DNA of 64,000 nt, taken from Tuwongella immobilis (GTDB lineage Bacteria; Planctomycetota; Planctomycetia; Gemmatales; Gemmataceae). Below the pieces are notes generated by a model. That model saw nothing but the letters and a program-made list of their open reading frames with translations, was not told the DNA's origin and searched no databases. Where the stretch lies: assembly GCF_901538355.1 (NCBI RefSeq), contig NZ_LR593887.1:744001-808000 (forward strand), in the 5' to 3' direction. A program made the position numbers and the translations under genes. Positions 7,506-63,260 of the stretch are shown one piece after another (positions within the stretch are counted from its first letter, which is position 1; each line of letters starts with the position of its first letter).

Positions 7506-7564
7506 TTAAATAATCTGTGAGAGACAACACCCTGACTGGTATATGCTAGTCAGGGTGTTGTCTC
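7506..7564 (+). promoter_or_regulatory. Leader of LRR gene 3: -10-like box and perfect hairpin
   Basis: Virtually identical to the leader of gene 2: TTAAATAAT, then the perfect 17-bp stem 7521-7537 with 7548-7564 and loop ggtatatgct. Confidence 0.55.
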
Positions 7565-7629
7565 AATAATGTCGGGCGTTTGCCCAACGGGTGATTCGAA
7601 CCTGCGATCCATTCCCAAGAGGAAATCCG

Positions 7630-8835
7630 ATGCGCGTGTTGCTGAGTGTGCTGGTGGTGCTGGTTGGTATGGTGGCGTCGTGCCAGAAGCCAGCGAAAGA
7701 GGAGCTGCCCGAGAAGTCGGCCCAAGGGTCGGTGAAGACGGAGCTGCCCAAGCAGTCGGCACCAGTGCCGGTGAAGACGGAGCTGCCCAAGCAGTCGGTC
7801 CAGGAGCCGGCGCAGACGGATCTGCCCAAGCCGCTGCCTGAGGCGGTCGTCAAGGCGTGGACTGACGCCGGGGCCGCTGTCGGCTGGATTACGGTCAATG
7901 ACGTCAGTCTGTTTGAGTGGGCGAACAAGGCAACGGCGGGTTCGGTGCCTGGGTTCCGATTCGACATGTGGAAGGAGGGCGTGATCGCCAACCTGCCCGC
8001 TCCCGAATCGCCGTTCGGACTCTTTTTGAGGTTCACGTCGGTGACGGACGCTGGGTTGAAAGAATTGGCTGGTCTGAAGAGCCTCACTCTGCTCGCCTTG
8101 AACAGGACGCCGGTGACGGACGCTGGGTTGAAGCACCTGTCCGGTCTGAAGAGCCTCACCTCGCTCAACTTGAATGGGACGCAGGTGTCGGACGCTGGGT
8201 TGAGGGAACTGTCCGGTCTGGAGAACCTCACCCTGCTCGACTTGACTCTCACGCGGGTGACGGACGCTGGGTTGAAGGAATTGGCCGGGCTGAAGCGTCT
8301 CACCACGCTCAACCTTGGTATCACGAAGGTGACGGACGTCGGGGTGAAGGACCTGTCCGGTCGGAAGAGCCTTACCATGCTCCACTTGAATGGGACGCAG
8401 GTGACGGACTCGGGGGTGAGGGAATTGTCCGGTCTGAAAAACCTCACCCTGCTCGACTTGAGTACGACGAAGGTGACGGACGCTGGGTTGAAGCACCTAT
8501 CCGGTCTGAAAAACCTCACCACACTCAACTTGAGTACGACGAAGGTGACGGACGCTGGGTTGAAGGAACTGTCCGGTCTGAAAAACCTCACCAGGCTCGA
8601 ATTGTACGAGACGCAGGTGACGGACTTGGGTTTGAAGGAACTGTCCGGTTTGAAGAGCCTCACCACGCTCCACTTGAATGGGACCCAGGTGACGGACGCT
8701 GGGTTGAGGGAACTTGCCGGTTTGAAGAGCCTCACCACGCTCTACTTGAATGGCACGCAGGTGACGGCGAATGGCGTGGCGGAGTTGCGGAAAGCGTTGC
8801 CGAAGTGTTATATCACTGGCGGACGCCGCCCTTGA
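7630..8835 (+). CDS. LRR lipoprotein, array gene 3
   Basis: This 401-aa protein has a lipoprotein signal with lipobox VASC, a KTELPK-type linker, the conserved globular part (AWTDAGAAVGWITVNDVS to APESPFGLFL), about ten LRR units and the cap VTANGVAELRKALPKC. It is almost identical to the next gene (offset exactly 1378 bp), so the two are a very recent tandem duplication. Differences cluster in the signal and linker (LVGMVASC here, LAGMVASC there). Dense, regular repeats predict a curved solenoid with a constant Lys/Asp edge. Confidence 0.85.
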   Translation: MRVLLSVLVVLVGMVASCQKPAKEELPEKSAQGSVKTELPKQSAPVPVKTELPKQSVQEPAQTDLPKPLPEAVVKAWTDAGAAVGWITVNDVSLFEWANKATAGSVPGFRFDMWKEGVIANLPAPESPFGLFLRFTSVTDAGLKELAGLKSLTLLALNRTPVTDAGLKHLSGLKSLTSLNLNGTQVSDAGLRELSGLENLTLLDLTLTRVTDAGLKELAGLKRLTTLNLGITKVTDVGVKDLSGRKSLTMLHLNGTQVTDSGVRELSGLKNLTLLDLSTTKVTDAGLKHLSGLKNLTTLNLSTTKVTDAGLKELSGLKNLTRLELYETQVTDLGLKELSGLKSLTTLHLNGTQVTDAGLRELAGLKSLTTLYLNGTQVTANGVAELRKALPKCYITGGRRP

Positions 8836-8887
8836 GGTCGGCGAATGCGGGCTGGCTTCGATCTCGGCGAATCGGCTGTGGTCTTAA

Positions 8888-8942
8888 ATAATCTGTGAGA
8901 GATTACGATCTGGCTGGTATATGCTAGTCAGGGTGTTGTCTC
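8888..8942 (+). promoter_or_regulatory. Leader of LRR gene 4: -10-like box and diverged hairpin
   Basis: AT-rich taaataatc is followed by gattacgatctggct, the loop ggtatatgct and the intact right arm agtcagggtgttgtctc (8926-8942). The left arm matches the gene 1 leader rather than those of genes 2 and 3, so pairing is partial. Confidence 0.45.
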
Positions 8943-9007
8943 AATGACGTCTGGCGTTTGCCCAACGGGTGATTCGAACCTGCGATCCATTCCCAAGAGG
9001 AAGTCCG

Positions 9008-10213
9008 ATGCGCGTGTTGCTGAGTGTGCTGGTGGTGCTTGCCGGTATGGTGGCGTCGTGCCAGAAGCCAGCGAAAGAGGAGCTGCCCGAGAAGTCGGCC
9101 CAAGGGGCGGCGAAGACGGAGTTGCCCAAGAAGTCGGCACCAGTGCCGGTGAAGACGGAGCTGCCCAAGCAGTCGGTCCAGGAGCCGGCGAAGACGGATC
9201 TGCCCAAGCCGCTGCCTGAGGCGGTCGTCAAGGCGTGGACCGACGCCGGGGCCGCTGTCGGCTGGATTACGGTCAATGACGTCAGTCTGTTTGAGTGGGC
9301 GAACAAGGCAACGGCGGGTTCGGTGCCTGGGTTCCGATTCGACATGTGGAAGGAGGGCGTGATCGCCAAACTGCCCGCTCCCGAATCGCCGTTCGGACTC
9401 TTTTTGAGGTTCACGTCGGTGACGGACGCTGGGTTGAAAGAATTGGCTGGTCTGAAGAGCCTCACTCTGCTCGCCTTGAACAGGACGCCGGTGACGGACG
9501 CTGGGTTGAAGCACCTGTCCGGTCTGAAGAGCCTCACCTCGCTCAACTTGAATGGGACGCAGGTGTCGGACGCTGGGTTGAGGGAACTGTCCGGTCTGGA
9601 GAGCCTCACCCTGCTCGACTTGACTCTCACGCGGGTGACGGACGCTGGGTTGAAGGAATTGGCCGGGCTGAAGCGTCTCACCACGCTCAACCTTGGTATC
9701 ACGAAGGTGACGGACGTCGGGGTGAAGGACCTGTCCGGTCGGAAGAGCCTTACCATGCTCCACTTGAATGGGACGCAGGTGACGGACTCGGGGGTGAGGG
9801 AATTGTCCGGTCTGAAAAACCTCACCCTGCTCGACTTGAGTACGACGAAGGTGACGGACGCTGGGTTGAAGCACCTATCCGGTCTGAAAAACCTCACCAC
9901 ACTCAACTTGAGTACGACGAAGGTGACGGACGCTGGGTTGAAGGAACTGTCCGGTCTGAAAAACCTCACCAGGCTCGAATTGTACGAGACGCAGGTGACG
10001 GACTTGGGTTTGAAGGAACTGTCCGGTTTGAAGAGCCTCACCACGCTCCACTTGAATGGGACCCAGGTGACGGACGCTGGGTTGAGGGAACTTGCCGGTT
10101 TGAAGAGCCTCACCACGCTCTACTTGAATGGCACGCAGGTGACGGCGAATGGCGTGGCGGAGTTGCGGAAAGCGTTGCCGAAGTGTTATATCACTGGCGG
10201 ACGCCGCCCGTGA
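9008..10213 (+). CDS. LRR lipoprotein, array gene 4 (near-identical to gene 3)
   Basis: This 401-aa protein has the same layout as gene 3: lipobox VASC, linker, globular part, about ten LRRs and the cap. From the globular part onward only scattered changes separate it from gene 3 (for example GLENLT to GLESLT). The leader, signal peptide (LAGM) and first linker unit (SAQGAAKTELP) instead match gene 1. It therefore looks like a chimera made by unequal crossing-over or gene conversion between gene 1-like 5' sequence and a gene 3-like body. Confidence 0.85.
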   Translation: MRVLLSVLVVLAGMVASCQKPAKEELPEKSAQGAAKTELPKKSAPVPVKTELPKQSVQEPAKTDLPKPLPEAVVKAWTDAGAAVGWITVNDVSLFEWANKATAGSVPGFRFDMWKEGVIAKLPAPESPFGLFLRFTSVTDAGLKELAGLKSLTLLALNRTPVTDAGLKHLSGLKSLTSLNLNGTQVSDAGLRELSGLESLTLLDLTLTRVTDAGLKELAGLKRLTTLNLGITKVTDVGVKDLSGRKSLTMLHLNGTQVTDSGVRELSGLKNLTLLDLSTTKVTDAGLKHLSGLKNLTTLNLSTTKVTDAGLKELSGLKNLTRLELYETQVTDLGLKELSGLKSLTTLHLNGTQVTDAGLRELAGLKSLTTLYLNGTQVTANGVAELRKALPKCYITGGRRP

Positions 10214-10260
10214 GGTCGGCGAATGCGGGCCGGCTTCGATCTCGGCGAATCGGCTGTGGT

Positions 10261-10314
10261 CTTAACTAATCTGTGTGATATTACGCCCTGGCTAGTATAT
10301 GCTAGTCAGGGCGT
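10261..10314 (+). promoter_or_regulatory. Leader of LRR gene 5: -10-like box and hairpin
   Basis: cttaactaat is followed by acgccctggct (10283-10293), loop agtatatgct, and agtcagggcgt (10304-10314). The arms pair except for one G-T position. Relative to the gene 2 and 3 stems, a change of A to G in the left arm (acac to acgc) is matched by T to C in the right arm (gtgt to gcgt), so pairing is kept. Confidence 0.5.
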
Positions 10315-10385
10315 CCCCTCAATGACGTCTGGCGTTTGCCCAACGGGTGATTCGAACCTGCGATCCATTCCCAAGAGGAAGTCCG

Positions 10386-23893: not shown

Positions 23894-24319
23894 TCAGCGG
23901 GTTGGGCAGGTGCCGTTCGGGCAGGGGACGATCCAAATGGGGCGGCCTGTCGGTGACATCACCGAGCGAAGCATCGTTGGCGATCTAGGGCTGGAAATCG
24001 GGATCGGTGCCGTGACCGATGACGGGACCGTGACCGATGACGGGACCGTGACCGATGACGGGACCGGGGCTGTGGCTGGGGCCGTGACCGAAGCCGAAGC
24101 GGCATCCGGGGTGGAAGATGCGGCGATTGCGGGAGTTGCCGGGGACGGCGGGGCGGTGTCAGCGGCGGTTGCGCCGGTGGTCCCAGTGGCGGTCGCGGCA
24201 GGGGTCGGGGCGGCGGTGAGGATGGGCGGTTCGGGCATGCTCAGGGCCAGGGCGGCGCGGGCACGCAGGGTATCCATCATCGACACGACTACGCCAAGAA
24301 TCATGAGCATCAACGTCAT
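23894..24319 (-). CDS. Small Ala/Pro/Thr-rich protein, last gene of the NTPase cluster
   Basis: This 141-aa protein has a hydrophobic N-terminus (MTLMLMILGVVVSMM), a long Ala/Pro/Thr/Ser low-complexity middle with three PSSVTV-type repeats (from an exact 18-bp tandem repeat), and a C-terminus GRPIWIVPCPNGTCPTR with two cysteines. Its start overlaps the peptidase stop by 4 nt, which supports it being a real cotranslated gene. It may be a small membrane-anchored or exported protein. Low complexity makes the call less certain. Confidence 0.5.
   Translation of the reverse strand: MTLMLMILGVVVSMMDTLRARAALALSMPEPPILTAAPTPAATATGTTGATAADTAPPSPATPAIAASSTPDAASASVTAPATAPVPSSVTVPSSVTVPSSVTAPIPISSPRSPTMLRSVMSPTGRPIWIVPCPNGTCPTR
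24011..24064. repeat. Three exact 18-bp tandem repeats
   Basis: Unit cgtgaccgatgacgggac repeated three times without change. It lies inside the 141-aa gene and encodes the repeated SSVTVP segment on the minus strand. Confidence 0.85.
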
Positions 24320-25452
24320 TGCGGAATCTCCAAATTCGATCCTTTTTTGGACACCAGCACAAGCTGCGAATGATCATTGGGGTGGCGATTGGGAGATCGC
24401 CGAGTTATCCAATCGAGTTGTCGGGCGGGAAAGCCGACGACATCGGAGAATGCCCAGGAATCGCCCTGGCGAAGCATTTTGTCGATAATCTCGGCATCGG
24501 CCCAGAAGCCGGCGGGCGAGGGATTGCCGGCACCGAGCGGGCCACGGTGATAGCGTTCGCCCCAGGAATTGAGGATAAATCCGCCGGGACGGTCGGCCCG
24601 CACGCCCACCAGTGCCATGCAGTGCGGCCAGGTTCCCTGCGGTTTGGCGAATCCCTGGGCGTCGCGCTGGGCAGAAAATCCCTGCATGGAGCAGATGGCG
24701 ATTGGGTAGCCGTTGCGAATCGCCTGCCGACATTCGGCCCACGATTTCACGGGGATGACGGTCTGCACGGGATGCAGTCGTGCTTGGGCTTTCAGCGGTT
24801 CGGGCACCCCTTGGCGGCCCCACAATCGGCAGCGGTCCTCGCGGTATGCGGTCAAATCGAGGTCGCCGAATCGGTCGCGTGGCACGACCCCGAATTCCTG
24901 CACCCATCGGGCGGCCCATGCGCCAATGCTCCCATCGCCGGTGAGCTGTCCGCCGCCGATTTCGACGCGCGAGCCTGCATAGACCACCTCGGTGGAGAGG
25001 TCGCGATAGCGGGGCGACGGGAGGCCATCGCCGCGAAGTCGGGCGATCTGCACGCATTGCAGATGCTCAATGGCGGCGACTGTGCCGAAGGCGACGCACG
25101 AGCCGACACTCCCCTGATCGCGAGCAGGGAGGAGTTCGCCGGTGACGGTGCGGCAGGCATCCCACAGAAACACATCTTCCGGCCCGGCAACGGGTTGCTG
25201 ATAGGCTGGTGTCTCGCGAAACGAGCGTTGCGGCAGCCCGGCAACAACTTTGGCGACCGCCTCGGGATCGGCTACCCAGCCGAATGCGGGCGGCGGAAGC
25301 GGCGGTTCCGGGGGGACATTCGGCGTGGGCGATTGCGGGCCGGGGCAGAGGCCGAGCATGGTCAGCACAGACGCCGCGGCAAGCACAATCGGCCACACCC
25401 AGGCGGGCAGTTTGGTCGCCCATTGCGGCTTGGGAATGCGGTACCAATTCAT
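24316..25452 (-). CDS. Membrane-anchored papain-like (C1) cysteine peptidase
   Basis: This 378-aa protein has one N-terminal TM (WPIVLAAASVLTMLGLC), a Pro-rich spacer (residues about 40-56) and a C1 peptidase domain. Its oxyanion Gln and catalytic Cys119 lie in RDQGSVGSCVAFG, His277 in WPHCMALVGV and Asn295 in FILNSWGERY, in the canonical order. The active site should face outside the cytoplasm. There is no long inhibitory propeptide. It overlaps both neighbours by 4 nt, so it belongs to a tightly coupled operon. The substrate may be a cell-surface or envelope protein. Confidence 0.85.
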   Translation of the reverse strand: MNWYRIPKPQWATKLPAWVWPIVLAAASVLTMLGLCPGPQSPTPNVPPEPPLPPPAFGWVADPEAVAKVVAGLPQRSFRETPAYQQPVAGPEDVFLWDACRTVTGELLPARDQGSVGSCVAFGTVAAIEHLQCVQIARLRGDGLPSPRYRDLSTEVVYAGSRVEIGGGQLTGDGSIGAWAARWVQEFGVVPRDRFGDLDLTAYREDRCRLWGRQGVPEPLKAQARLHPVQTVIPVKSWAECRQAIRNGYPIAICSMQGFSAQRDAQGFAKPQGTWPHCMALVGVRADRPGGFILNSWGERYHRGPLGAGNPSPAGFWADAEIIDKMLRQGDSWAFSDVVGFPARQLDWITRRSPNRHPNDHSQLVLVSKKGSNLEIPQ

Positions 25453-26168
25453 GGTGCGAGTTCCTCCAACGCGTGGGCGATTCGGGCGAATAATTCTGCC
25501 GCCGATCGACGCATTTCGGGCGTCAATCGCTGGTCGGCGTTGGTGCCGAGCGTTTTGCCAATTTCCTCACCAATCGCTTTGCGAATCGTCGGCAGGGCAT
25601 CGGCCGGGAGCATCACCGTGGCCGCCGATTTCAGCCGCGACGCAAGTTCCGCCGTGGTTTGCAGTTCGGTAATTTCCGCAAAGCGAACCGCTTCCCGAAA
25701 CAGCGCAACCAGCGCGAGCCGATGCGTCGATTTCTGGGCGTGTTGCTCGCCGTCGTACAACGACTGCAATTTCAGCCGCAACGGATCAACGGGTGGTGAT
25801 GGATTGGGACCGGGCGGAATCGGCGTTGGCGGTTGTGGCGGCGTCGGCGGTTGCGGCGGGGAAGCGGGGCGAACGCGAATCGTGCAGATGGCCGGCTGCG
25901 AGGGAAGATCGCCGGCGGCGGTGTACGCCAGCACGCGATAGTCGCCGGGCTGCGGGGCCACAAACAACGCCTTGCCATCGAGATACGGCAACACATCTGC
26001 CGCATCGGAGAGACTGACCCATCGCACGACTTTGCCCGTCGATTCGGCTGTGAGCACCACCAGCCGCCCCGGTCGGGCATCGAGTGTTTCGGGAAGCCGA
26101 ATGGTAGGCTCGGCAAACGCCACACTGGGAAGAAGCAACAGAAGATAGGAGATTGTCGATCGGTTCAT
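25449..26168 (-). CDS. Secreted hypothetical protein of the NTPase cluster
   Basis: This 239-aa protein has a signal peptide (STISYLLLLLPSVAFA). An Ig-like or beta-sandwich domain follows (IRLPETLDARPGRLVVLTAE to GDYRVLAYTAAGDLP), then a Pro-rich hinge (residues about 130-150), then a helical C-terminal half of about 90 residues. ATG at 26168 is chosen because GGGGG lies 7 nt upstream; a GTG two codons earlier is possible. It overlaps the peptidase start by 4 nt, so the two are presumably coexpressed and both extracytoplasmic. Confidence 0.7.
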   Translation of the reverse strand: MNRSTISYLLLLLPSVAFAEPTIRLPETLDARPGRLVVLTAESTGKVVRWVSLSDAADVLPYLDGKALFVAPQPGDYRVLAYTAAGDLPSQPAICTIRVRPASPPQPPTPPQPPTPIPPGPNPSPPVDPLRLKLQSLYDGEQHAQKSTHRLALVALFREAVRFAEITELQTTAELASRLKSAATVMLPADALPTIRKAIGEEIGKTLGTNADQRLTPEMRRSAAELFARIAHALEELAP

Positions 26169-26198
26169 GCACACCCCCTTCGCATTTCGACAGATGCA

Positions 26199-26220
26199 GT
26201 TCTGAACATTTGCTCAGAAC
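26199..26220. other. Inverted repeat in the intra-cluster gap
   Basis: gttctga and tcagaac form a perfect 7-bp stem with an 8-nt loop, in the only sizeable gap (about 140 bp) of the six-gene cluster, upstream of the secreted-protein gene. It could be an operator or attenuator; no promoter is obvious. Confidence 0.3.
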
Positions 26221-26311
26221 CACATTCGTCGGGAAATGCGATTTCGCTAGGGGGGATGCCAATTTTTCCCCAATTTTTTTCGGGGAGCCGTCCTCACACC
26301 ATCTGAGATGC

Positions 26312-27580
26312 TTACCAATCTTGATATTTTCGCCAGATGTAATCGATCACACCTAATACCATATAAATCGGTACCATGCACAGGAAATAAAAGAGATTCC
26401 ATCCCGATGCCGAGGCTAAATCGGTGACACCGTCGGCGATTGAATCGGGATCAATTTCACCGCGTGTGATGACGCCGACCAGTCCCACAAATCCTTTCAC
26501 CGTTAATGCGGCACCGGCAGTTAACGATACCTGAAGTTGTTTCCCACTTCGTGGAAGCATGAGAAAATAAACTTCACCCCGTTGGACGGAGTCGCCGACC
26601 GTGACATCATAATCCAGTCGGACTCGTTGGGAGAGTAACGGATCGGTAAGAATGGTAATTTGTGTTTGCCAAATTCCATTCTCATAAATGGTGGGTGAGG
26701 TTTCGATTAATCCGGGGACATCATAAAAGCGTAAATCTTTTCGATGTTGATCGGAGTTGGAAATTCGCAACAGATATTGATGCTGCTTGCCGTGAACATG
26801 GAATTCGCCGTTGAGCAGGGCGATGGGTTTCTGTTGCTCTTTGTCGAGCAGTTGCACGGGATCGCGGGTTAATCGTCGCGGTTCGAGAAAGCGAAACAGC
26901 CGCGAATTCTGTTGGGCCAATTCCTCGGCGGTGGCAGCGGGCACGGGAAAACTGCGATTCACTTCATAATCCACGCCGTGAATCACGGTCCGGGCATGAA
27001 CACGGAGTTGATCGCCGACTAACACCATTTCTAACGATTCGGGCGTATCCGGCTTCCATTGTTTGAAATGCCGCTTGAGCGGACCCGAACGAATATGCTC
27101 CGAAGGGGAGAAATTCAACTCCAACGATTCAATCGCTTCCGGGCTTCGGTGAATGAATGTTAATTCACATTTCACCGCTTGATCGTAGGCGCAGATGCGT
27201 TTGAAATCCCATTCCAGCCATTGCTCCAGCGGGGCAATGACGCGGAATTCCCGATCCGGAAATGATACAATTTCGTTCTTGGATTGATCCGGAAGATACG
27301 GATTCACCTGAATCAGCATCATCTTGGCGTTGAACATTCCCTGTTCGGGGAAGGTCACGCCGAAGGTGATGGATTGCGAATCGCCGGGAAATAGCACGAT
27401 ATCCGTGGGAAACAGATCGGTATTGACCACGGCGTTGGGCACGGCAACGGTGACGCTGGGAATGCGGACCACGTCGGTGCATTCGCTGGGGCGGGTGACG
27501 CGGACATGCACCAGGTGCATTTGCCCGGCGACAATCCGGTCCCACGGATTTAACCATTCAATGAGAATTGGCGGGTTCAT
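26312..27580 (-). CDS. Beta-rich protein with C-terminal membrane anchor, NTPase cluster
   Basis: This 422-aa protein has no signal peptide. The first about 340 residues have alternating strands resembling stacked beta-sandwich domains (MHLVHVRVTRPSECTDVVRI, then FPGDSQSITFGVTFPEQG). Near the C-terminus are a hydrophobic stretch (LTVKGFVGLVGVITRG) and a clear TM (NLFYFLCMVPIYMVLGVIDYI) followed by a basic tail. It starts 11 bp after the NTPase stop. The topology is unclear: without a signal the beta region may be cytoplasmic and tethered to the inner face of the membrane. No known family is recognised. Confidence 0.7.
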   Translation of the reverse strand: MNPPILIEWLNPWDRIVAGQMHLVHVRVTRPSECTDVVRIPSVTVAVPNAVVNTDLFPTDIVLFPGDSQSITFGVTFPEQGMFNAKMMLIQVNPYLPDQSKNEIVSFPDREFRVIAPLEQWLEWDFKRICAYDQAVKCELTFIHRSPEAIESLELNFSPSEHIRSGPLKRHFKQWKPDTPESLEMVLVGDQLRVHARTVIHGVDYEVNRSFPVPAATAEELAQQNSRLFRFLEPRRLTRDPVQLLDKEQQKPIALLNGEFHVHGKQHQYLLRISNSDQHRKDLRFYDVPGLIETSPTIYENGIWQTQITILTDPLLSQRVRLDYDVTVGDSVQRGEVYFLMLPRSGKQLQVSLTAGAALTVKGFVGLVGVITRGEIDPDSIADGVTDLASASGWNLFYFLCMVPIYMVLGVIDYIWRKYQDW

Positions 27581-27591
27581 GGTGGGGTTCC

Positions 27592-29622
27592 TCAGGGTGC
27601 TTCCGCGTTGCCGGTGGATTCGGTTTCCAGTGGCGTATCGGTGGCACTCACCGCCATGGCCGCTTGCAATTTCTGGACGGCAAATTGGATGAAATCATGC
27701 AGATAGGTGCTGGAAATTAAGCGCTGCATGAGCGTGTTGAGGACGTTGAGATTCTCCGCGGAATAATTCGCCCGGCGGGAATTAATTTCTAACATGGCCC
27801 GGAGTTGCAGGTCTTGTTCTTCGGGGCAGTGTCCTTTTTCGATCCGATCGAGATAATTTTCTTTCACATAGTTGGACAATTCGGGCAGTGGCTGCCAGCG
27901 CACCAGGTAGACGAATTTGGTGAGTCTCTCGCGGCGGTAGAGAAATTCGTTGACCAATTCGGGGATTTCCTGGGTATATCGGCGGCCCAGGCTGGCGATG
28001 TTGACTTCGATGGTGCGCGAATTTTCGGATTGGCCGATGCGCAGACGCAGGCAGGGAATGCGGTCCAGGTCGCTGCGGATGGCTTCGCGGATTTCCAAGC
28101 GGTGATATTCTTTGAGAATGTCTAACACTTCACGGGTATTGAAGAGCCGCTCTAACAGCGACAAATGCAATTCCGCGAATTCTCGCCCGGCCGATCGCTC
28201 GGTTTCTTTCGTCAGTCGGTTCAATTCGTATTGGAAATCCAATTGCGATTCCACCGCCAATTTCCCGATCCGCTCATGAAATGCGCGATCGAATTTTTCT
28301 AAGCAGCTTCGCAGAGTACCGACACCGACAAGCGACCGAAGTTCATCTACTTGAAATGGAATATAAGGATTATCAAGTTTAGAAAAACTATCGGCAACAA
28401 TTGGATCATCACTCAGCCAATATCGAATTCTCGCGCGATACAGTTGAAGAATCTGCTCGGGATTCGGTAACTGCAACGTGAATTGCTTGTCCATCCGAAT
28501 TCGATCTTGGAATTGCCGCTCCATTTTGGGATGCAGCCGATCTCGCAGATCGAGCGTCATCGTGAATAAAATTACCACATTGGAGAGCGTGTTATACAAC
28601 TCGCTAAGATGGGTGAAGAAATCACGCCATTGGTTATCATTCTCAAATAATTCATCCCGCCCTTCGGTTTGATCGAAGGTCAGCAAAAATACCCGTGGTT
28701 TGCAGGGGTATTCGGGCCGATCCAATTCTTTGGAGACGGAGACCGAAAACAGATGCGCCAGGAGCTTAATTGCCTCGAATTTCAGATAGTGGCGATCGAG
28801 ATTTTCCGCGGTGCCAAGCAACTGCGCCAAGTAGCCATCATCTTGGCGGCCCCGGAACCAATGCAAAATCCGCTCCCGCCGATTCAGCGGATTGTCTTCT
28901 GATTCGGGGAAGGCATATGCCATTAACAGCTTGAGAATGTAGCGATGGGTGAGATTGCTGCGATCGCTCAAAAACCGATCGCAAACATAATCGCCAAATT
29001 GACCCAATTGCAGATATTGAAAGACTTTCGGATCTCGTTGTTGGGTCATGGCGAGCAGGTCGGGATATTGCACCCGGCGGAACCACGACCAGATTCCTTG
29101 GGAATCGCCGGAGCGTTTCACACAGGATTTCCAACCCAACGGAGTTTCTAACAGAATTTCCAACGCCCGAAACGCAATCGTCTGGATTCGTTCCAGCAAC
29201 ACATGCGGTTGGGTGGGTGAGGGGTGCGTGAGTGCCGCGATCACCCAATCCAACAATTGCCCTTCAAATTCTTCCAGACGCCAATGATTGGAACCGCCGA
29301 CAAATAAATAGTCGGATTGTTCCATGGGGCTGACATCTTGGAAGGTCCGCAGCAGGTGCGATTTGCCCACACCGGCATCACCGGAGAGCAGAATCACTTG
29401 GGATTTCTTCTCCCCGTTGCGCACGGATTGAATCACATCCCGAATGTGTTGCCGGAGCGGTTCGTTAATATCGGGTAAATCACAACTCAATCGTCGGCCG
29501 GAATGGGTTGTAATTCGGTCATCGAATGGTGAGAGATTCACCATGCGATCCGATTGCGGCATCCGCCGTTTGAATTCGCGTTGGATTTCCAGTTCGGCTA
29601 AGGGGGCGTTGGGCGTAGTCAT
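27592..29622 (-). CDS. Large P-loop NTPase (AAA/STAND-like), NTPase cluster
   Basis: This 676-aa protein has Walker A GDAGVGKS at residues 81-88 after an N-terminal strand (SQVILLS), and a probable Walker B VFLLTFDQTE at 311-320 preceded by a long helical insertion. The NVVILFTMTLDLRDR segment resembles the sensor strand of AAA+/STAND ATPases. The remainder (to 676) is helical without recognised repeats; a Q rather than a second acid follows the Walker B Asp. It lies 3 bp after the winged-helix-like gene. The energy-using core of a conflict or signalling system is a reasonable inference; the family could not be named. Confidence 0.75.
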   Translation of the reverse strand: MTTPNAPLAELEIQREFKRRMPQSDRMVNLSPFDDRITTHSGRRLSCDLPDINEPLRQHIRDVIQSVRNGEKKSQVILLSGDAGVGKSHLLRTFQDVSPMEQSDYLFVGGSNHWRLEEFEGQLLDWVIAALTHPSPTQPHVLLERIQTIAFRALEILLETPLGWKSCVKRSGDSQGIWSWFRRVQYPDLLAMTQQRDPKVFQYLQLGQFGDYVCDRFLSDRSNLTHRYILKLLMAYAFPESEDNPLNRRERILHWFRGRQDDGYLAQLLGTAENLDRHYLKFEAIKLLAHLFSVSVSKELDRPEYPCKPRVFLLTFDQTEGRDELFENDNQWRDFFTHLSELYNTLSNVVILFTMTLDLRDRLHPKMERQFQDRIRMDKQFTLQLPNPEQILQLYRARIRYWLSDDPIVADSFSKLDNPYIPFQVDELRSLVGVGTLRSCLEKFDRAFHERIGKLAVESQLDFQYELNRLTKETERSAGREFAELHLSLLERLFNTREVLDILKEYHRLEIREAIRSDLDRIPCLRLRIGQSENSRTIEVNIASLGRRYTQEIPELVNEFLYRRERLTKFVYLVRWQPLPELSNYVKENYLDRIEKGHCPEEQDLQLRAMLEINSRRANYSAENLNVLNTLMQRLISSTYLHDFIQFAVQKLQAAMAVSATDTPLETESTGNAEAP

Positions 29623-29625
29623 GGC

Positions 29626-30630
29626 TTAAATCCATTGAACATAATAATACAGGGTGTGATCTCGATAAATCGCTAATTCACGTTGTTCGGCCTTGTGAAC
29701 TTCATTGAGAACGCGAAGTTCGATTTCGCGGTTTTGGCTCATATTCCACAGGGTGTTGTGGAAATCTTCGACGGTGAGGGCGGGGTAGCGTTTCTTCGCT
29801 TCGTGATAGAGTCGATACAGGTGGACCAACTTGTGCCGAAATTCGACGAAAAGGCACAGGTGGTCGTATGCTTCTTTGAGCAATGCGGGCAGCGGCTTGC
29901 TGGGGGCACTGCTGGCGGGGGCCGTTGCGGTTGTGGCGGCCGGTGCGGCGGCGGGTTTGGCGGCAGCTGCGCCACTGGGAGCGGCAGTTGGGGCGCTTGG
30001 AGCACTGGGAGCGGCACTGGGAGCGGCGGTCACGCCGAGCTTCAATTGTACGGCGGCGAGAATGTCGCTGGCCGAGATGTTCAGCGTCTTCAGTCTCTCG
30101 ATTGCCCGGACGATCTTGTCGAATTCGGCCTTGTTGGGGCTGGTGGTGTACCAGACCGGGGCGGGCGGGGCGTTCTTGCTGTAGCGATCGCGGCCGACCA
30201 GGAAGAGTTGTTTGCCGTCCAGCAATCGCTTCAGCACGGCGTTGAACGCATCCATGGCCGGTCGGCCTTCGCGGGCACCGGGTTTCCCCAATTGCGCGGG
30301 CGTGATCGGGTCGGCGGTGGCGGCGGCGAGACGGTCTTGCACGCGGGCTTCGATCACCGATTCGATCGATGGCGGCTGCTTGGCCGAATAGCGCGGCCCA
30401 CTCGCGGCCGTCCCAGGATATTCAAACGCACGCTTGGCAGCAACTTCCGCCGCAATCGCCGCTTGAATCGCATCATCCGCCGGCGGAGGCGGCAGCGGTG
30501 CTTTCCTGGTGCCGCGCGGGTAGAGTCGGCGAATCTGCGTGATAATCGCACGCATGGCCAACGGTTGTTCGGTTGCTTGCAGGATGTGTTGCAGTTGTTC
30601 GATCAGTTGCGGGGCGGCGGCGGTGGACAT
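29626..30630 (-). CDS. Multi-winged-helix-like protein, first gene of the NTPase cluster
   Basis: This 334-aa protein seems to contain three small helical modules joined by Ala/Pro linkers: residues 7-40 (QLIEQLQHILQATEQPLAMR), about 125-205 (DAFNAVLKRLLDGKQLFLV, a Tyr-rich strand, then helices), and 250-334 (LLKEAYDHLCLFVEFRHKLV to REIELRVLNEVHKAEQR, with a final strand). The last module looks like a winged helix. GGGAG precedes the ATG. It could be the recognition or DNA-binding subunit partnering the NTPase, whose gene begins 3 bp later. The winged-helix reading is by eye only. Confidence 0.65.
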   Translation of the reverse strand: MSTAAAPQLIEQLQHILQATEQPLAMRAIITQIRRLYPRGTRKAPLPPPPADDAIQAAIAAEVAAKRAFEYPGTAASGPRYSAKQPPSIESVIEARVQDRLAAATADPITPAQLGKPGAREGRPAMDAFNAVLKRLLDGKQLFLVGRDRYSKNAPPAPVWYTTSPNKAEFDKIVRAIERLKTLNISASDILAAVQLKLGVTAAPSAAPSAPSAPTAAPSGAAAAKPAAAPAATTATAPASSAPSKPLPALLKEAYDHLCLFVEFRHKLVHLYRLYHEAKKRYPALTVEDFHNTLWNMSQNREIELRVLNEVHKAEQRELAIYRDHTLYYYVQWI

Positions 30631-30935: not shown

Positions 30936-32798
30936 TTATTGGCCCAGGCCGAGGCGGATGGCGAGGAACAGGCCGCCAAAGAGCATTAGCCAGCCGACGA
31001 GTCGAGCGGCCAAGTAGGTGTAGCAGGTGCGGGTGGGCATGCTGCCGTCCAGCGTTTCGATGCGGTAAATCTCGAAATACGGGATCGGAGCGCGGCGGAA
31101 CCAGCCTTCCACGCGCACGGTTTTGCCCTGGTAGTCGTTCGCCTTCAGCAGGCCGAAGAGGAAGTTCCAGAGGCCCAGCGGCTGTTGATAATCCAACAGC
31201 AGGATGCCGGTTTGATCGCGCATCACGAAATCTTCGCAGTAAATCAGGCCGGGCACGCCTTTGCCGATGACTTCGCCGGTGACGGTGGCGGTGACGGGGC
31301 GGACGGGCGAGACCTTGATATGCCCCAACAGAGCGGCAACGGTCAGGTGTGGGTGCAGATTGCCAGCGTATTTGAAGTGCGTTTTCAGCAGCGATCCCAG
31401 CCCGGCGAAGATGACCGGCAGCGACCACCAAGCCGCCGAGGTGGCCCCGAACATCGGTGCGGCCAGGGCGATGCCGACACCCAGAATCGCGCCCAAAATC
31501 GGGGCGATCATCACCAGCAGATCAACCAGGAAGTCGTCCCAATATGATTCGGGCTTCTTGCGGGTGAAGGTGAATTGCGGTTCTTGGCCCAGCACGGCGG
31601 CCTGATCGCTCAGATACGCAAGTCGATTGGCAACCAGGGGATGCGTCGAATTCAATTCGTAGAATTTCGCCCAGGGATTCCAGAGATCCCATTGCATGGC
31701 GGACTGCACGCGACCAGGATCGAGCGTGGCCGGGCTGCCATCATGTGGCGGGAGCGGCGGCGGGGTTGCATCATTGAACGAATTCGAATTCAGATTGTCG
31801 CTCGGATCATTGGACGCGGATGTGATGCGGGCGCGGGAGTCGGGAGCTGCGTTGAGCGCGAGATTCAACGAACTGCGATGATCGAAGATATTCAGTGCCC
31901 CCATGGCACCCGTCGCGGCGGGAGATTTGTTCTTGGCATCGGCTTCGGAGCGTCCGACCCCGGCGGCGAGTCCGTAGCCGATTTTGACCAGGGAGCGGGC
32001 CAAGGCGTTGGGGTTGCCGGTGGCTTGCCCGGCAAAGCGATCGGCGGCATATTCGCGGGTGCGGCTGAACCACAGCACCAGATATTCCGACACCACATAG
32101 AGCAATCCGGCGGTGATGCCGATGGCCATGGCCGGCCCTTTGGTGCGGCCTTCACCCGCGCGGCCGATTTGCGTGGCGGTGCGATAGACATAATACAGCA
32201 GCAACGGCACCAGATTCGCCAGCGTCATCAGCGCCATATCCCAATTGCGCAGGTGGCCAAATTCGTGGGCGATGACGGCGTCCAACTCGTCGGGTTCGAG
32301 CAATTCAATCAGGCCCGTGCTGAGGACGATTCGAGCATCGCCGGGCATGCGACCGTAGGTGAAGGCTTGCGGGGCACCATCGCGGATCAGCCCGAACATG
32401 GGGAAGGTGATGCCGTCGCGTTCGCAGAGTCGTTCGATGAGTTCCCGTAAATGATCGGGAAGTTGGCGCGGTTCGATCCATTCCATGGAATACAGCCACG
32501 ACAGGCTGAGGTCCATCAGCCAGGGGCCGATGGCGTATTGCAGCAGCACAAAGAGGACGCCGATGCCGACGGCAATGTTGGGGGTGGTGACTTCGAATTC
32601 GACGAGCAGAATGAGCACGGCACCGACGAGGGCGTATAACAACGTCATGGTAAACGCGGATCGCAGGAACAGATTGGGCAACGCGAGCATGCCCGATGCC
32701 AGCGATTGGCGGCGGTCCCATTCGCGGGCGGCCAATTCGGGATCGTGCAGCGGATCGGGTTGCGAGTCGGGCGCGGAATTGGGGGCGGCGGCGCTCAT
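30936..32798 (-). CDS. M48 family (HtpX-like) membrane metalloprotease with extra C-terminal region
   Basis: This 620-aa protein has two TM segments near the N-terminus, then the zinc motif HEFGH (His178, Glu179, His182) and two further TMs. RTREYAADRFAG supplies the third ligand Glu. An Asn/Pro-rich insertion separates this from HPLVANRLAYL. Usual HtpX proteins are about 290-330 residues; here about 200 more follow with two TMs and an OB/NfeD-like beta region (TATVTGEVIGKGVPG). The ATG at 32798 is supported by GGAG. The likely role is membrane protein quality control. Confidence 0.85.
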   Translation of the reverse strand: MSAAAPNSAPDSQPDPLHDPELAAREWDRRQSLASGMLALPNLFLRSAFTMTLLYALVGAVLILLVEFEVTTPNIAVGIGVLFVLLQYAIGPWLMDLSLSWLYSMEWIEPRQLPDHLRELIERLCERDGITFPMFGLIRDGAPQAFTYGRMPGDARIVLSTGLIELLEPDELDAVIAHEFGHLRNWDMALMTLANLVPLLLYYVYRTATQIGRAGEGRTKGPAMAIGITAGLLYVVSEYLVLWFSRTREYAADRFAGQATGNPNALARSLVKIGYGLAAGVGRSEADAKNKSPAATGAMGALNIFDHRSSLNLALNAAPDSRARITSASNDPSDNLNSNSFNDATPPPLPPHDGSPATLDPGRVQSAMQWDLWNPWAKFYELNSTHPLVANRLAYLSDQAAVLGQEPQFTFTRKKPESYWDDFLVDLLVMIAPILGAILGVGIALAAPMFGATSAAWWSLPVIFAGLGSLLKTHFKYAGNLHPHLTVAALLGHIKVSPVRPVTATVTGEVIGKGVPGLIYCEDFVMRDQTGILLLDYQQPLGLWNFLFGLLKANDYQGKTVRVEGWFRRAPIPYFEIYRIETLDGSMPTRTCYTYLAARLVGWLMLFGGLFLAIRLGLGQ

Positions 32799-32987
32799 GC
32801 CAGGTGACTCCGAACGGTGCGAATTCGGGAAATTTTCACGAGTGAATCGAATCGATATTCGCACTGCCGGGGGGCATCTTCACGTGGAAATGGTGAAATG
32901 CGGGAAAAAAATCGGATTCCGATGATTCTCGGGACGATGCCAAAAAATGCTCAGGCGATGATTTTGTGCTGTCAGCAAAAAAAAGGA

Positions 32988-62414: not shown

Positions 62415-63260
62415 TCAGGCCGCGCGGCGCACTTGGAAGCTGTGAATCTCGCAGGTGATGAGCGTATCCACCACTTGCATGGCGGTGGGGCGGGATTGCC
62501 AGCGACGTTCGAGCATGGCATCGACTAAGTCGATGAGCGCGGTCGGCCAGGGGCCAGGATAGTCCCAGAGGCTGGCGGCGGGATCGACACGGTGGCGGCG
62601 CATCACTTCTTTGACGCTGCCGGTCGGGTAGGGGAGTTCGCCGGTGAGCATTTCGAATAGCGAAATGCCGAGCGCGTAGATGTCGCCAGCGGGGTGATCA
62701 ACGGCGTTTCGGTCGCACATTTCCGGGGGCAGATAGTTGGGGGTGCCCAACACAAAGCCTTGCTCCAGAACGGCTTGGTTCTCGCCGGGAATGTGCGAGA
62801 AGCCCAGATCGATCAGGACCGCATGCCCGTTATCCACCAGTCGGATATTGTCGGGTTTGACATCGCCGTGGATGAAATTGGCGCGATGCAGGGCATGCAG
62901 GGCATCGGCGGTTTGCCGGGCAATCCAAATCGCGGTCGAATGATCCAAACAATATTCGCGGTACATGCGCTGACGGACGGATTCCCCCGTGATGCGATTC
63001 ATGACGAGAAAATAGGGGGGCTGGGAAAGCCGAGCTTCGAGAATTTTCACCAGGTGCGAATGCTCGACGGCCATGCCCGTGCGGGCCTCGCGGCGGAGCA
63101 GTTGCAGCGCGGTGGCATCATCAAACCAATCTTCACGCAGGACTTTGACGGCAACCTCTTCGTCGGTCTGCACATCACGCCCGGCATAGACAATCGAGGT
63201 CGCCCCATCGCCGAGGCTTTGGAACAGTTCGTATCCCGGAATATGCGGTGGACGGTGCAT
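62415..63260 (-). CDS. Serine/threonine protein kinase
   Basis: This 281-aa protein is a bare kinase domain: a glycine-rich loop (LGDGATSIVYAG), ATP-binding Lys39 (VAVKVL), catalytic Asp133 in HGDVKPDN (HRD replaced by HGD) and a metal-binding DLG (151-153, for DFG). GTPNYLPPE and DIYALGISLFEML follow. No TM or sensor domain is visible, unlike the usual PASTA or TM forms in planctomycetes, so it is cytoplasmic. The HGD and DLG changes are tolerated in many bacterial kinases. Substrates are unknown. Confidence 0.9.
   Translation of the reverse strand: MHRPPHIPGYELFQSLGDGATSIVYAGRDVQTDEEVAVKVLREDWFDDATALQLLRREARTGMAVEHSHLVKILEARLSQPPYFLVMNRITGESVRQRMYREYCLDHSTAIWIARQTADALHALHRANFIHGDVKPDNIRLVDNGHAVLIDLGFSHIPGENQAVLEQGFVLGTPNYLPPEMCDRNAVDHPAGDIYALGISLFEMLTGELPYPTGSVKEVMRRHRVDPAASLWDYPGPWPTALIDLVDAMLERRWQSRPTAMQVVDTLITCEIHSFQVRRAA

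Follow-up and report, generated by a model that had tools for sequence, protein, structure and literature searches.

The window analysed here is a stretch of 64,000 nucleotides corresponding to positions 744001-808000 of the 6.69-Mb single-contig genome of Tuwongella immobilis (Planctomycetota, Gemmatales), and six consecutive minus-strand open reading frames (ORFs) at its positions 23894-30630 are the subject of this report. Genes 1-3, for a tandem winged-helix (WH) protein, a predicted ORC/Cdc6-type AAA+ ATPase and a protein with immunoglobulin (Ig)-like domains and C-terminal hydrophobic helices, form a conserved but sporadic unit in Gemmata-type bacteria that matches no system model searched here. 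This trio (26312-30630) and a signal-peptide/peptidase cassette, genes 4-6 (23894-26174), are two neighbouring units and not one, because co-conservation covers genes 1-3 only. By analogy with published systems, there is about an even chance that the trio is one functional unit and a membrane-coupled relative of the anti-invader systems built from ORC/Cdc6 and winged helix-turn-helix (wHTH) proteins.

The conserved trio and its proteins

A sequence-only reading of the window had described six minus-strand genes with gaps of 3, 11 and about 140 bp followed by two 4-nt overlaps, and this layout was re-found in full; the distances from gene 1 to gene 6 are 3, 11, 137, -4 and -4 bp (Table 1). The linkage proposed in that reading between the WH, nucleoside triphosphatase (NTPase) and membrane genes was borne out on comparison with other genomes of the order. 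The ATPase was found in 10 of 102 Gemmatales genomes, or 9 of the 71 good ones (at least 90% complete and at most 5% contaminated), and all ten have the trio together. At 11 of 11 ATPase loci in these genomes, including L023, which is broken, and L017, which is cut by a contig end, the three genes lie in the same order on one strand. The surroundings of the ten other loci were searched over up to 18 kb, less at contig ends, with all six window proteins as queries; genes 1-3 were re-found, and genes 4-6 were seen at none of the ten. Intergenic gaps within the trio range from -17 to 61 bp in nine loci measured (L018 and L023 left out; some starts set by alignment).

Searches with the single genes gave a similar picture. 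Strong matches to the WH profile (expectation value, E, <1e-40) occur in exactly the same ten genomes, and 64 of 102 have a match when weaker ones are included. The membrane-gene profile has matches in 12 of 102 genomes, namely the same ten, G007, where it is a fragment on a contig of 3.3 kb, and G021; G035 has an additional fragment of this gene at a contig edge. Across a 392-genome sample of the phylum, the membrane gene was found in the window's genome only, with at most four candidates scored per genome; the phylum searches in general scored two to four candidates, and the absences in them are therefore soft. Broken copies are present in G024 and G021, and sequencing errors may account for part of those in draft genomes. 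The patchy spread, the broken copies and a number of WH repeats varying from one to four suggest accessory behaviour of the trio.

The sequence-only reading had recognised no described system, in agreement with the library searches. No Pfam or NCBIfam model matches a trio protein at cut-off, and PADLOC gave P-loop matches only, with E 1e-4 or weaker; none of the six proteins exceeds a curated cut-off in Pfam, PADLOC, PHROGs or NCBIfam. Literature searches of open-access papers found no published system with the trio's gene set.

The gene 2 product carries a Walker A motif (GDAGVGKSH at residue 81), a Walker B-like motif (FDQTEG at residue 316, pattern FDQxE) and a putative arginine finger (MERQFQDRI at residue 367) in a conserved ERQF-DRI segment. 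Its AlphaFold model, built from a 10-row alignment, has a mean predicted local distance difference test score (pLDDT) of 82.8 and a predicted template modelling score (pTM) of 0.70. The best solved neighbours in VIA-align include a Drosophila ORC-Cdc6 entry (chain G; Z 13.1 over 240 residues), an archaeal Cdc6/Orc1 (Z 12.2), TnsC (11.9) and RdrA of RADAR (10.8); Foldseek E-values are weak (best 1.9e-3). On the basis of the model and motifs, gene 2 is assigned to the ORC/Cdc6-type AAA+ ATPases. Residues 497-575 of the model form a helix, three strands, a helix and a strand with no evident PD-(D/E)XK motif. This domain may have a restriction-enzyme-like fold that lacks the catalytic motif, is inactive and serves in binding; MspJI chains occur among the Foldseek rows of the whole model. 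The C-terminus is modelled as helices 601-660 with no wing strands, hence a C-terminal wHTH is not seen in the model. For the large STAND protein of Avs (AVAST) systems, the only match was to the P-loop stretch, with 15 bits where the Avs2 cut-off is 1000.

Applied to eight relatives of the gene 1 product, a profile of the WH unit detected 4, 4, 3, 3, 2, 2, 2 and 1 units; the window protein gave two weak ones. Units of L016, L020 and L022 went into this profile, so the counts for these three follow by construction, and the counts for L017 and the window protein are weak. The ninth relative, L024, has no WH unit by this profile and differs in its N-terminus, which looks coiled-coil-like by eye. 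Weak Pfam matches of single relatives include several WH families (SelB-wing_2, TBPIP, HTH_45, Penicillinase_R) among other families, and the window protein shows none of these WH-family matches. The best-conserved part is the C-terminal WH-like domain, and the gene 1 profile aligns over 216 columns (E 2.6e-12) with the WH partner of another ATPase group described below.

The gene 3 model (nine rows, pLDDT 78.7, pTM 0.43) consists of beta-sandwich domains, the first two of which resemble Ig-like domains of macroglobulin, transglutaminase and complement proteins (Z up to 9.9). Hydropathy plots of nine aligned gene 3 proteins have two C-terminal peaks in the window protein and five relatives; of the initial description as a beta-rich protein with one C-terminal transmembrane (TM) segment, the first part stands and the second is replaced by two hydrophobic segments. 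As no signal peptide is evident by eye, the Ig part is probably cytoplasmic.

Table 1. Features of the two units in the window, and the paralogous core ATPase of the same genome
Feature	Position	Strand	Basis or remark
Gene 1: tandem WH protein, 334 aa; two weak N-terminal WH repeats and conserved C-terminal WH-like domain	29626..30630	-	WH profile; similar by profile to the WH proteins paired with other ORC-like ATPases
Gene 2: predicted ORC/Cdc6-type AAA+ ATPase, 676 aa; lid and C-terminal alpha-beta-beta-beta-alpha-beta domain (model residues 497-575)	27592..29622	-	motifs, model
Gene 3: Ig-like beta-sandwich domains and two C-terminal hydrophobic helices, 422 aa	26312..27580	-	model, hydropathy
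Spacer, 137 bp, between conserved trio and unrelated downstream cassette	26175..26311	.	
Gene 4 (separate cassette): signal-peptide protein, 241 aa	25449..26174	-	signal peptide judged by eye
Gene 5 (separate cassette): membrane-anchored papain-like (C1) peptidase, 378 aa	24316..25452	-	slightly below Pfam cut-off
Gene 6 (separate cassette): small Ala/Pro-rich protein, 141 aa, hydrophobic start	23894..24319	-	at most a short stretch conserved
Core ATPase	G000:C1:4427077-4429680 (L164)		other core loci L151-L154, L158

Paralogous and distant ATPase loci

A second ATPase group, here termed core (P-loop GNKGAGKTHLLHSIKHG), was reached by following weak WH matches in the order; it is present in 92 of 102 genomes of the order and 68 of the 71 good ones. 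Outside the order, matches were obtained in 4 of 382 phylum genomes, the window's own genome giving the only strong one (two candidates scored per genome). The two core members scanned have sub-cut-off Pfam matches only, AAA_16 being the best. The core ATPase looks like a highly conserved core function of the order that is uncharacterised by the libraries searched. A WH gene was recognised at five of six core loci read; these five were reached through their WH gene and therefore say little on WH linkage, and at the sixth, that of the window's own genome and the sole one not chosen in this way, none was recognised. An unchosen hand count found, in at least 25 of the 92 core genomes, a same-strand WH match that ends upstream of the core ATPase at a distance of at most 250 bp. 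Detection of WH genes beside the paralogues is incomplete.

A third ATPase group is sporadic and shares 30-32% identity with the core; five of its loci (L165-L169), taken from the ATPase list of the core search, were read. A WH gene was recognised at three of them, and at all five an ORF whose product has two TM segments at its C-terminus lies downstream. A downstream frame with such a two-helix C-terminus was seen at none of the six core loci read, where other hydrophobic frames have one peak (L152) or four (L158). The membrane proteins of the sporadic group belong to two families; one occurs in 6 of 102 genomes, of which three were read further, and the other in 2 of 102.

The trio ATPase aligns by profile with two other ATPase groups over 378 columns (E 9.6e-9) and 432 columns (E 2.8e-12), beyond the P-loop. 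The tree resolves the trio, the core group and each of the two sporadic groups as clades of their own, with support. Judged from these alignments, the trio belongs to a family of WH and ORC-like ATPase pairs.

Since the paralogous ATPase is core in the order, the basic job of the family may be chromosomal. This leads to the main, serious rival of a defence function, in which the WH protein and the ATPase bind host DNA and the Ig/two-helix protein anchors them to the membrane, the trio being an accessory version of a DNA-membrane tether or nucleoid organiser whose basic form is the core pair. The near-universal core ATPase with its upstream WH matches, the addition of membrane proteins in the sporadic versions and the lack of visible defence genes in the flanks of the ten other loci all fit a tether. 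However, the trio occurs in 10 of 102 genomes only and is broken in one, distant relatives adjoin nucleases, and the core ATPase lacks a two-helix gene at the six loci read. On balance, a tether is rather unlikely, while deserving to be taken seriously.

The same loci allow a broader proposal, namely that in Gemmatales a core chromosomal pair of WH protein and ORC/Cdc6-like ATPase gained sporadic paralogues, each of which recruited a protein with two C-terminal helices from one of three families without detectable sequence relation. The paralogues would then make up a new class of AAA+ immune modules that sense DNA and are coupled to the membrane, and they would stand to the core pair roughly as Wadjet stands to housekeeping SMC complexes. 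This proposal is tentative and is given somewhat less than an even chance.

Beyond the order, the ATPase profile has matches in 25 of 392 phylum genomes, mostly to the P-loop region alone (at most three candidates scored per genome), and these distant ATPases form long branches with no safe placement in the tree. Six distant surroundings were read (L059-L064). A WH gene lies directly upstream of the ATPase at L060-L063 (E 5.7e-13 to 1.5e-4), and L059 comprises WH and ATPase genes on a 3.6-kb contig; the gene upstream at L064 overlaps the ATPase and was not recognised as WH. The third gene at L060, about 300 bp downstream, encodes a PD-(D/E)XK protein with a Mad8/HerA-like part (PADLOC mad8, 3.5e-30), and that at L062 a PD-(D/E)XK-RuvB-like fusion. 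A HATPase protein is the third gene at L064, with McrBC-type genes close by, a small multi-TM protein is the third gene at L063, and no third gene was recognised in the surroundings of L061 that were read. Thus, nuclease, Mad8/HerA or McrBC neighbours occur at three of the six distant loci (L060, L062, L064). The ATPase of L062 scores 25.7 bits with the Pfam model BrxC_BrxD, whose cut-off is 22.2 bits, and also exceeds the cut-offs of AAA_16 and KAP_NTPase. From its sequence, the L060 combination of WH protein, ORC-like ATPase and PD-(D/E)XK/Mad8-HerA-like protein, found in another lineage of Planctomycetota, is a candidate compact defence system.

Genomic setting and the adjoining cassette

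The sequence-only reading had named defence-rich loci as a setting that would support its proposal, and no such setting was seen. PADLOC was applied at a threshold of 1e-10 to 64 ORFs flanking the ten other loci (mechanical calls of at least 160 aa, some perhaps spurious), and the window flanks were covered by Pfam matches of four neighbours. The 25 families listed of the 39 given by PADLOC match four members each and are models of kinase type (PD-T4-6, mad6, C3a189, MkoA, PglW). As kinase-type models, they are uninformative on defence, and no defence genes clustering around the trio were seen among the PADLOC families listed or the four window neighbours. A NACHT protein was seen once, in the flank of L015.

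No fourth gene family recurs at more than three of the 11 loci, and the one found at three is kinase-like; no HerA/FtsK translocase or active nuclease companion recurs beside the trio among the 11 loci. A possible fourth gene at L018 and L020 was considered as a general component and rejected, being not general and having no Pfam match (L020 scanned). Kinase-like genes near L016, L017 and L021, that of L016 fused to an FGE-sulfatase domain, resemble the window ORF at 62415-63260. Kinases are abundant in Gemmatales genomes, and these occurrences may therefore be chance. The upstream neighbour of the trio in the window (30936-32864) encodes an M48-family metallopeptidase, which was not found beside the ten other trios.

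The guanine-plus-cytosine (GC) content of the trio is below that of the flanks at 10 of 11 loci, at one of them by 0.004 only, and is 0.534 against 0.604 in the window. The low value was rejected as proof of recent transfer; its recurrence at 10 of 11 loci indicates that it is partly a property of the trio genes. It is one of three observations, with the ORC/TnsC-like fold and a weak TnsC sequence match of the ATPase (E 0.0059), in favour of a module for the maintenance or transposition of a mobile element, with an ATPase resembling TnsC, MuB or IstB. Such a module is improbable, given the lack of a fourth gene family at more than three of 11 loci, of an ATPase match in plasmid and phage collections, and of convincing inverted, direct or terminal repeats around the window trio. 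A search of viral contigs with short exact peptide patterns, which reach close relatives only, also gave nothing for the ATPase. Elsewhere in the window, blastn of two stretches revealed a direct tandem duplication (7532-8950 and 8910-10328), offset by 1378 bp and 98% identical over 1419 bp, that contains shorter internal repeats; its ends may be cut by the stretches chosen.

Genes 4-6 are a neighbour and not part of the trio. The gene 5 peptidase keeps Cys, His and Asn motifs that are presumably those of papain-type enzymes, and gene 6 encodes a low-complexity Ala/Pro protein. Of the 102 genomes of the order, 35 have the peptidase and 32 its signal-peptide partner, and the window's own genome has four adjacent pairs of the two, making genes 4 and 5 an independent multi-copy pair. 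Next to seven further peptidase copies, the protein of the following gene has an ARAALAL-like stretch resembling that of gene 6, clearest in four (by eye). A short membrane protein, holin-like by eye, lies between the peptidase and the next secreted-like protein in three of the cassette's four copies in the window's own genome (L105-L107).

The proposal, after the sequence-only reading, that all six genes make up one conflict system, with the protease as an effector, drew on their close spacing and common strand in the window. It does not hold up against these data: genes 4-6 lie beside the trio at one of 11 loci, peptidase and partner are far from confined to trio genomes, and in G022, G024 and G074 the peptidase and the trio are on different contigs. 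The six-gene system is strongly disfavoured and appears highly improbable.

Relation to known systems and proposed role

Published ORC/Cdc6 capture neighbourhoods combine ORC/Cdc6, an inactive restriction endonuclease (REase), nucleases and HerA/FtsK, and a subset has a fast-evolving protein with 2-4 wHTH domains; a counter-invader role is argued for them (PMC10853773). A later analysis extends the scheme to BREX-related systems (PMC12839542). The trio resembles these capture systems (PMC10853773) in having an ORC/Cdc6 AAA+ ATPase, possibly followed by a REase-like domain, and resembles the subset in its protein with 1-4 WH repeats and a C-terminal WH-like domain, a likeness by sequence only. 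It differs in having no recurring HerA/FtsK or nuclease gene and an Ig/two-helix membrane protein instead; in addition, the C-terminal wHTH that follows the inactive REase in capture-system ATPases is not seen in the model of the trio ATPase. The trio may therefore be a variant of the ORC/Cdc6-wHTH kind in which a membrane effector or anchor replaces nuclease and translocase.

The comparison with BREX and related systems (PMC12839542) is similar. An ORC/Cdc6 ATPase and a separate multi-wHTH protein are shared, and the distant relative L062 is the one above the BrxC_BrxD cut-off. In contrast, the trio ATPase, at 676 aa, is about half the size of BrxC (1200-1300 aa), and the trio has three genes, with no PglZ or methyltransferase; PglZ and BrxC gave no Pfam or PADLOC match in the six window proteins. 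The vWA-MoxR ternary and related systems (PMC7159879) also combine an NTPase with partner genes, occur in Planctomycetota as well and include two-TM effectors (SLATT) in related systems; genes 1-3, unlike those ternary systems, have no vWA or MoxR Pfam match.

RADAR resembles the trio in that RdrA is among the nearest solved folds of its ATPase (Z 10.8). The partner in RADAR is a deaminase. The trio has no deaminase partner, its ATPase differs in the C-terminal part, and its membrane protein is Ig-based.

A defence module is favoured because the trio has an ORC/Cdc6 ATPase, perhaps an inactive REase domain, and a multi-wHTH protein, as in the capture systems; the grounds for defence are the distant relatives and the sporadic distribution. 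The two-TM downstream ORFs at five of five sporadic paralogue loci are counted in its favour as a membrane theme, and the nuclease, Mad8/HerA-like and McrBC neighbours of distant relatives as links to conflict. In the mechanism envisaged, the variable tandem-WH protein would recognise invading DNA or its replication intermediates. The ATPase would assemble on the WH-bound DNA as an ATP-dependent ring or filament, using its Walker motifs and arginine finger, and the complex would signal through the Ig/two-helix protein to the membrane. The membrane would most likely be damaged and the infected cell stopped.

Several observations weigh against a membrane-coupled defence function. The helices of gene 3 at residues 345-373 and 392-421 have low model confidence, and three of the nine gene 3 proteins have a single C-terminal hydropathy peak at the threshold used. 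The membrane gene of G021 is interrupted by stops and a frame break, and neither of the other trio genes left a trace in 14 kb. The REase-like fold of the ATPase was read from one model. The membrane proteins of the sporadic loci have no significant profile similarity to gene 3, hence the shared membrane plan may be convergent or too old to detect. The nuclease-linked relatives are very divergent and match the trio mainly in the P-loop region. To these are added the near-universal paralogous ATPase, the lack of clustered defence genes and the lack of matches in plasmid and phage collections, all described above.

Gemmatales are known for unusual cell organisation. If the trio is a membrane-coupled relative of anti-invader systems, bacterial ORC/Cdc6-wHTH systems are not solely nuclease-based, and DNA recognition in them would also be coupled to the membrane. 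The presence of a near-universal core ATPase and of sporadic membrane-coupled relatives in one order offers a natural comparison between housekeeping and conflict use of the same machinery, and with a size of three genes the trio is transferable to laboratory strains and directly testable.

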